DNA of 64,000 bases from Paenibacillus albus. Lineage in GTDB: Bacteria > Bacillota > Bacilli > Paenibacillales > Paenibacillaceae. Shown here piece by piece: positions 58,132 to 59,669 of this stretch (positions are counted from its first letter, which is position 1; every line of letters starts with the position of its first letter). Location of the stretch: contig NZ_CP034437.1 in the NCBI RefSeq assembly GCF_003952225.1, positions 5,876,001 to 5,940,000 of the forward strand, read 5' to 3'. A program made the translations under genes and the position numbers. Under the pieces are notes generated by a model. It saw only the letters and a list, made by a program, of their open reading frames with translations. It ran no database searches and was not told where the DNA came from.

Positions 58132-58911
58132 TTACATCCATTCTTTAATCAGCCTGTTCTCTTCTTCGGTTAATGTACCTCGCTGAGTAGCTTGCAGATT
58201 CGTATGGACCCAGTCGGCTTTTCTCATGGAGACGATAACCCGGTCAACTACCTGCTGCTCGGACACCCATCTTAGCAGCAGATCCGCAGCTTGCTCCGAA
58301 TTGATTTCGTCAAGCTTCCAGCCTCGAACGAATGGCGATAATGCGACCGTTGTCAGTCCCATTTCCTTGGCGATGACGAACGTTTCCTTCGTCCTTTGAT
58401 GCGCAATATTGTAAGGAGCAAGGATATGCGTAACGGGATGATCAGCAGGAAGACGATTCAGATGCGCTGGCTCGGCCATGCCAAGCCCGACTGTTCCCAC
58501 TTTCCCTTGTTCCACCCATTGCTTCGCAAGCTCTATCTCCTGCAGAAGCTTATGTTCATCGTCATGCGTATGGATAACGAGAACATCAATGAAGTCGGTT
58601 TGCAGCTCACTTAGCATGACATCGATATGATGGGGCTCATAGCTGCTATAGCCGACTAGTTTATCGGATTGACCCGGCAAATTGAAGAAATTCCACGCCA
58701 TTATTTGTACTTCTTGCCGTCTACCTAAAGCACGCAGCACGTTCCCAAGCGCCACCCGTTCCTGATAATAGGTCGTATCAATTAGCTGAATCCCGTTATC
58801 TAGGCACTCTCTGACAATTGTGCACTGCTCCTCGAACGATGCGAGCGGGTCGTTGCCCAGCTCCTCAATGAATGTGTGTCCCCCGAGTCCAAGCTTGGAT
58901 AAATTCGGCAT
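58132..58911 (-). CDS. Aldo/keto reductase-like protein lacking the catalytic Lys
   Basis: AKR-fold protein of 259 aa. ATG at 58911 (MPNLSKLGLGG) with GGAGAG nine bases upstream. The barrel start LGLGGHTF, Asp and Tyr in QLIDTTYYQERVALGNVL and His in VLVIHTHDDEH are present. The strand that normally carries the active-site Lys reads VQIMAWNFFNLPG with no Lys. Reductase activity is therefore doubtful, and another chemistry or a sensory role is possible. It is the second gene of a two-gene unit whose leader is a SAM-I riboswitch. It ends five bases from the convergent AraC stop. Confidence 0.83.
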   Translation of the reverse strand: MPNLSKLGLGGHTFIEELGNDPLASFEEQCTIVRECLDNGIQLIDTTYYQERVALGNVLRALGRRQEVQIMAWNFFNLPGQSDKLVGYSSYEPHHIDVMLSELQTDFIDVLVIHTHDDEHKLLQEIELAKQWVEQGKVGTVGLGMAEPAHLNRLPADHPVTHILAPYNIAHQRTKETFVIAKEMGLTTVALSPFVRGWKLDEINSEQAADLLLRWVSEQQVVDRVIVSMRKADWVHTNLQATQRGTLTEEENRLIKEWM

Positions 58912-58932
58912 GCAACTCATCTCTCCTCTCGA

Positions 58933-59376
58933 TTAAAAAGAAACGTATTCCTGCGCATGATGAAATAAAAATGCTCGATCCCATTTTCCTGGCAGCTCTA
59001 TGTCATCTAAACCTAGGTTAATCTGTTCTACTATATTCATTAGTGCCGATTCCATTAATTCCACTCTTACTTGTCCCCATGCCTCTTGTTTTAATTGAGA
59101 GTAGCCGATGCAATCAACCAGGGACAAACCTTTTAAGCGTTGGAACAACGCTGCCCACATCGCCAAATCTCCCGCTAGGCTTCTTGTAGGAATCGCAAAT
59201 TCCTTGAAACCAACGACTCCGGTAGTAGTGGAAATCGCAATTAACCCGCAAACGTCTGCTTCTTCTCGAAGCTTCAGCTTCCGTCCAAACTCAGGATCAA
59301 ATCGATAGCATTCGATGCGGGTAATTCTGCAGCTCTGTAAATGAGCCGAGACTCTGTCAGGATTCATTATCGCCAT
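58933..59376 (-). CDS. Small protein under SAM riboswitch control, enolase-N-domain-like (147 aa)
   Basis: Function unknown. ATG at 59376 (MAIMNPDRVS) with AAGGAGG about 11 bases upstream. Residues about 17-95 (ITRIECYRFDPEFGRKLKLRE, CGLIAISTTTGVVGFKEFAIPT, MWAALFQRLKGLSLVD) have the order of elements found in the N-terminal capping domain of mandelate-racemase/enolase enzymes (variable tail, G-x-x-G strand, helices), but no catalytic barrel follows. The similarity is my own reading and moderate. It is transcribed from a strong promoter at 59642-59669 through a riboswitch and terminator, and is co-transcribed with the AKR-like gene 21 bases downstream. Confidence 0.72.
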   Translation of the reverse strand: MAIMNPDRVSAHLQSCRITRIECYRFDPEFGRKLKLREEADVCGLIAISTTTGVVGFKEFAIPTRSLAGDLAMWAALFQRLKGLSLVDCIGYSQLKQEAWGQVRVELMESALMNIVEQINLGLDDIELPGKWDRAFLFHHAQEYVSF

Positions 59377-59424
59377 ATTGTCCTGTTCCTCCTTATGTCG
59401 ATGTTCATTTCGCACGTGAAAAAC

Positions 59425-59460
59425 AAAAAATGACCTTCTCTGTAGTAAGAGAAAGGTCAT
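59425..59460 (-). terminator. Regulated terminator of the SAM-I riboswitch
   Basis: On the minus strand ATGACCTTTCTC, eight-base loop, GAGAAGGTCAT followed by six T, between the aptamer and the ribosome site of the 147-aa gene. It acts as the expression platform. Confidence 0.85.
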
Positions 59461-59486
59461 TAGCATTCATTCGAAGTCAGATCCTC

Positions 59487-59620
59487 ACTCTTATCTGCCA
59501 GATACGCTTTACAAAGCGTTTCCGCAAGAATTAGCACCGTGCATTCCTTTGATTAACAAAGGTTTGTCGGTTGCCGGGTTTCATCGGGCTAGTCCCTCCA
59601 CCTGCTCTTGATAAGAAAGT
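59487..59620 (-). ncRNA. SAM-I (S-box) riboswitch aptamer
   Basis: Read on the minus strand: TTCTTATCAAGAGCAGGTGG, then AGGGACTAGCCCGATGAAAC and CCGGCAACC, a variable hairpin (CCTTTGTTAATCAAAGG), then GGTGCTAATTCTTGC, another hairpin (CGCTTTGTAAAGCG) and CAGATAAGAG, which closes P1. All hallmark S-box elements are in order (kink-turn region, GATGAAA core, CTAATTC). It binds S-adenosylmethionine and should promote termination at 59425-59460 when SAM is plentiful, so the downstream pair is made when SAM is low. Confidence 0.95.
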
Positions 59621-59641
59621 TCCATCTATTCAATTAACTCA

Positions 59642-59669
59642 ATTCTACTATAAAGGGCTTTGATGTCAA
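59642..59669 (-). promoter_or_regulatory. Sigma-A promoter of the SAM riboswitch transcript
   Basis: TTGACA (59664-59669), 16-base spacer, TAGAAT (59642-59647) on the minus strand, about 20 bases before the aptamer. Confidence 0.75.

Follow-up and report, generated by a model that had tools for sequence, protein, structure and literature searches.

An S-box leader apparently copied from metA precedes a predicted enolase-cap protein in Paenibacillus albus

S-box regulons classically comprise methionine, cysteine and SAM genes. What, then, does a SAM-I (S-box) riboswitch control when the gene behind it lies outside this set? The locus described here raises that question. It lies within a window that comprises the whole 64,000-nucleotide stretch of P. 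albus DNA analysed. A preliminary description had placed an S-box aptamer, a regulated terminator and a promoter ahead of a 147-aa protein without assigned function, here called y, and of an aldo/keto-reductase (AKR)-like protein, and had suggested a role in sulphur metabolism, methionine salvage or detoxification. Genes under SAM riboswitches that lack an explanation are noted in general terms in the available text of one report (PMC3766115).

The arrangement of the leader is as first described (Table 1). The aptamer spans the full length of its model, exceeds the RF00162 gathering score of 44.4 bits and is the sole Rfam match at the gathering threshold within the window. When the terminator 3' arm is omitted from folding, the P1 3' strand UAAGAG pairs with CUCUUA of the terminator 5' arm. 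This pairing is thus predicted to form an antiterminator, completing, as a folding prediction only, an expression platform with a terminator and an alternative antiterminator. In the usual S-box logic, bound SAM leads to the terminator and absence of SAM to the antiterminator. The window aptamer would be expected to bind SAM, and control of y by low SAM is well supported, as surely as sequence allows.

Table 1. Features of the y locus, in window coordinates.
Feature	Position	Strand	Details
Sigma-70-type promoter	59642..59669	(-)	-35 TTGACA 59669-59664, -10 TAGAAT 59647-59642, spacing 16; read directly
SAM-I (S-box) aptamer, complete	59488..59617	(-)	RF00162, model 1-108, 68.1 bits, E 9.3e-14
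Intrinsic terminator, hairpin and T run	about 59420..59461	(-)	-14.9 kcal/mol, between aptamer and y
Ribosome-binding site AAGGAGG	59386..59395	(-)	read directly, precedes ATG at 59376
y, 147 aa, predicted enolase-superfamily cap domain without barrel, conserved C-terminal tail	58933..59376	(-)	ORF
Aldo/keto-reductase-like protein, 262 aa	58132..58920	(-)	PF00248 E 2.9e-20

The first gene behind this leader belongs to an unnamed family found mainly in Paenibacillaceae. In agreement with its description as a protein without assigned function, the window y as a single query matched nothing in Pfam or NCBIfam at a cut-off of E 1, nor any PDB sequence at E 10. No MR_MLE family emerged when every member of alignments A1 and A3 was scanned against Pfam, and a profile of A3, the wider alignment, gave no PDB match up to E 10. 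By prediction, y folds like the N-terminal cap alone of enolase-superfamily (MR/MLE) enzymes, with which y residues 10-124 align collinearly by profile. Proteins such as B. subtilis YitF (2gdq/2gge) share the predicted cap domain with y but are about 370 aa long, whereas y, at 147 aa, has room beyond the cap for no more than a short tail. It is therefore not classed as an enolase-superfamily enzyme: the C-terminal (beta/alpha) barrel is missing and, with it, the metal ligands and catalytic residues. On these structural predictions a cap fold is likely; y would then be without catalysis, and is most likely no enzyme but a binding or regulatory protein. In the distant relatives L144, L141 and L140 the linker between cap and C-terminal tail is much longer. 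The literature listings consulted, which extended to riboswitch capture and truncated enolase domains, show no description of the y family.

The second gene contributes less to the answer. The AKR-like ORF starts 12 nt past the y stop and is probably cotranscribed with y. Its label is supported by the PF00248 match, and the protein resembles perakine reductase and IolS in that domain and in sequence over residues 7-201. It differs from them in its length of 262 aa and at the position of the catalytic lysine. A lysine belongs to the catalytic tetrad of aldo/keto reductases; in the alignment with perakine reductase (3v0s), a tryptophan occupies the position of the GTK lysine, making AKR activity doubtful. 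The G019 orthologue, 87% identical and also behind y, carries the same residues at this position. An orthologue stands behind y only in the window and G019, 2 of the 14 loci of the S-box clade; G021 has a different AKR there (28%). The AKR-like gene was accordingly rejected as a real S-box target and as a conserved part of the S-box-controlled unit, and is treated as a lineage-specific passenger.

The association between the S-box and y itself is far more regular. With the y protein as query, 22 y places were found in 13 of 22 genus genomes, the other nine giving no match, and these fall into two groups. The S-box-type group comprises 11 genus loci (one with an in-frame TGA) together with relatives in P. 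terrigena, P. silvestris and G352. All 14 loci of this clade have an S-box ahead of y, and all 14 leaders have a terminator-like hairpin (-12.0 to -20.4 kcal/mol), which upholds the view of y as an S-box-controlled gene outside the usual set. Nine genus genomes carry both kinds of y, two the S-box kind alone and two the other kind alone. In the copy with the in-frame TGA (G014:C42:137224-137640; L011, L035), aptamer and terminator are still there. Across the family, a y-type leader scoring at least 188 bits occurs in 13 of 394 genomes, every one at a y locus, and the next match scores 113 bits. The genus has 34 S-boxes: each of the 22 genomes has one ahead of metA, a further 11 stand ahead of y, and one, in G004, lies elsewhere. 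This last (L078; G004:C1:5160301) is the second S-box of its genome, and its downstream ORF resembles homoserine dehydrogenase by eye.

Outside this clade the family keeps different company. Whether y always follows an S-box had been asked at the outset; it does so throughout its own clade, but more distant homologues lack the S-box. The preliminary description had named homologues free of an S-box and tied to another pathway as evidence against its proposal, and this holds in part, the distant homologues being tied to kdp and c-di-AMP riboswitches. A kdpA gene lies near y in 28 of 49 loci outside the S-box clade and in none of the 14 within it. In the other genus group, kdpA, kdpB, kdpC and the gene of a KdpD-like sensor lie downstream of y at 10 of the 11 loci (gene names from NCBIfam, where the best model for the last of these is 'KdpD-like non-kinase potassium sensor'). 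In this sensor, carried by the kdp operons of the genus, the same domain matches twice (L039:11018-13336). A c-di-AMP riboswitch lies directly upstream on the same strand in 7 of these 11 loci; the own-genome paralogue of the window y and three other genus kdp-type loci have none.

Beyond the genus, kdpA was found within the 14-kb stretch in 18 of 38 non-S-box loci examined. A same-strand upstream c-di-AMP riboswitch is present in 24 of 53 non-S-box loci, a divergent one only in 4 and none in 25. 'Upstream' in these tallies is taken from coordinates, with gaps of about 10 to 640 nt. The riboswitch tally (53 loci) and the kdp tally (49) cover a part of the family-profile matches; the second G309 match and other partial matches were left out. 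The family profile itself matches 127 of 394 genomes in the family; of 398 sampled evenly across the class it matches 20, two of them outside the family. The y loci of these two (G639, G687) also have a c-di-AMP riboswitch, and the G639 stretch, the one of the two whose surroundings were viewed, contains kdpA and kdpB. At nine non-S-box loci (L069, L070, L074, L076, L213, L220, L221, L223 and L225) c-di-AMP riboswitches lie on both strands around y, some with two in tandem on the divergent strand. The window gene shows neither mark of this group: the 64-kb window contains no kdpA match and, at the Rfam gathering threshold, no c-di-AMP riboswitch, whether upstream on the same strand or elsewhere. 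Given the kdp and c-di-AMP company of its relatives and the missing barrel, a binding or regulatory role of y in K+ or ionic homeostasis would be a reasoned guess.

How, then, did a relative of kdp-linked genes come under an S-box? The start of the coding region suggests an answer. N-terminal extensions of the better preserved S-box-clade y proteins, such as that of P. terrigena, match MetA residues 1-43 as protein and as DNA. In the window y, where the first ~16 codons mark the site of this extension, it is worn down to about 16 residues. BLASTP of the own MetA (residues 1-70) against the ORFs gave E 2e-7 to 1e-3 at the best five loci, weaker matches at four, and no match for the window y, L029, L030, L032 and L033. 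With P. silvestris MetA, the score was reached by 0 of 5000 shuffles for five of the seven extensions tried, by 51 of 5000 for G021 and by 302 of 5000 for the window. At the DNA level the counts were 0 of 2000 shuffles for three extensions and 1 of 2000 for a fourth. When the P. terrigena extension was compared with 380 ORF N-termini, metA scored highest of all that are not y. NCBIfam identifies the own metA as MetA; behind it lie two cystathionine-type PLP enzymes.

The leaders and the two trees point the same way. In the leader alignment, homology extends from the promoter, which in the window can be aligned with the other y leaders and that of P. silvestris metA, past aptamer and terminator into coding sequence, where y lacks a run of metA codons. 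The S-box tree unites every y S-box in one group (91/99; bootstrap not settled), which also holds the P. silvestris metA S-box. The protein tree, drawn without L035 (which has an in-frame TGA), L106 (the L025 locus again) and L136-L145, places the S-box clade within the genus kdp-type clade (100/100), with weak support for a single origin (84/46). These results indicate that the kdp-linked gene was duplicated and that one duplicate acquired the 5' part of a metA resembling that of P. silvestris. The S-box unit was thus apparently, and very likely, copied from metA along with the first metA codons. A possible donor is the lineage of P. silvestris, whose metA leader (L157) has an S-box of y type, unlike genus metA S-boxes.

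This origin bears on the proposal that the S-box marks the true pathway of y, in methionine/SAM or sulphur metabolism proper, and that the kdp neighbourhood seen in relatives reflects another, older function. The classical membership of S-box regulons and the retention of the S-box in 14 of 14 loci speak for such a role, as does the S-box copy retained beside a kdp-type copy in nine genus genomes, which implies that it does something different. Against it, in the map of y neighbourhoods no methionine, cysteine or SAM gene was seen next to y, whose neighbours are not conserved, and y has no catalytic domain. Moreover, the S-box arrived with the metA piece, so its presence is explained without an initial sulphur role. 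Apart from the S-box itself, nothing found points to the earlier suggestion of sulphur metabolism, methionine salvage or detoxification, and a sulphur role is on balance unlikely.

The direction of the transfer could also be questioned. As just one metA S-box, that of P. silvestris, groups with the y S-boxes, this metA might have exchanged its leader for one of y type, the y leader having come from another metA. The y extensions, however, miss a codon stretch that metA retains, which argues that the coding part moved from metA to y. Such a reversal, which we consider quite unlikely, would in any case leave the capture itself unchanged.

A further possibility would be that the S-box copy of y has no adaptive SAM-linked role and is a by-product of metA leader duplication, kept constitutively or by chance. 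The in-frame TGA of the G014 copy, the decay of the metA-derived extension and the nine of 22 genus genomes without a match to the protein query are consistent with this. However, dN/dS is 0.15-0.30 in eight of nine S-box-clade pairs (0.63 in the closest, with dS only 0.05), and both aptamer and terminator hairpin are kept in all 14 loci. On these ratios y is under purifying selection; a chance or vestigial S-box was rejected on dN/dS and hairpin conservation, and the by-product explanation is decidedly improbable. That y, its fold being that of a cap, serves as an enolase cap in trans for a barrel-only partner was likewise rejected and is highly improbable, as the own genome's 11 MR_MLE_C matches all lie in open frames of at least 381 aa, with room for their own cap, and 9 MR_MLE_N matches were found.

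Taken in aggregate, the data lean towards a locus in which a transcription-attenuating SAM-I unit, captured from metA, drives a non-catalytic paralogue of a K+/c-di-AMP-linked protein. The proposed history would begin with duplication of a gene that in relatives adjoins the genes of the kdp K+ pump, often behind its own c-di-AMP riboswitch. Next, the metA promoter, S-box, terminator, ribosome site and approximately the first 43 codons would have been joined in frame to the duplicate, the codons later being trimmed. At high SAM, the aptamer would close P1 and the terminator would halt transcription; at low SAM, the P1 3' strand would pair with the terminator 5' arm, allowing transcription of y and of the AKR-like gene behind it. 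The product, keeping the cap domain and C-terminal tail of the MR/MLE fold, would act as a binding or regulatory protein, one y copy being made on low K+/c-di-AMP and the other on low SAM.

SAM synthetase requires K+, and SAM could for this reason serve as a second report of K+. The corresponding extension, that in bacteria of this genus two riboswitches (c-di-AMP and SAM) report K+ to two copies of a barrel-less enolase-like regulator, the S-box copy having arisen by in-frame metA capture, is speculative and rather doubtful.

Among known systems, the Paenibacillaceae metA S-box leader shares with the y locus its aptamer family, terminator arrangement and coding-region start; in the y locus, by contrast, metA coding is lost after ~43 codons and y follows instead. 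SAM control of metA is reported for P. riograndensis in the available text of PMC5670726. In Bacillus thuringiensis, according to the available text of PMC6488665, a c-di-AMP (ydaO) riboswitch controls kdpFABC. The same riboswitch logic over kdp recurs here, with the difference that most kdp-type loci of the genus have an extra gene, y, between the c-di-AMP riboswitch and kdpA, none being mentioned in this text for B. thuringiensis, and that the window copy stands under an S-box, without kdp.

The y locus would represent a change of riboswitch ligand dated by its remnant: the metA promoter, aptamer, terminator and first codons moved as a single piece, and the moved codons are still legible in several species. 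In-frame capture of a metA riboswitch with the first codons would offer a direct route to a new controlling metabolite. If the predicted cap fold is true, the family also represents an enzyme fold reduced to its non-catalytic part. As it stands behind two unrelated riboswitch classes, c-di-AMP and SAM, the y family may connect K+/osmotic homeostasis with SAM supply.
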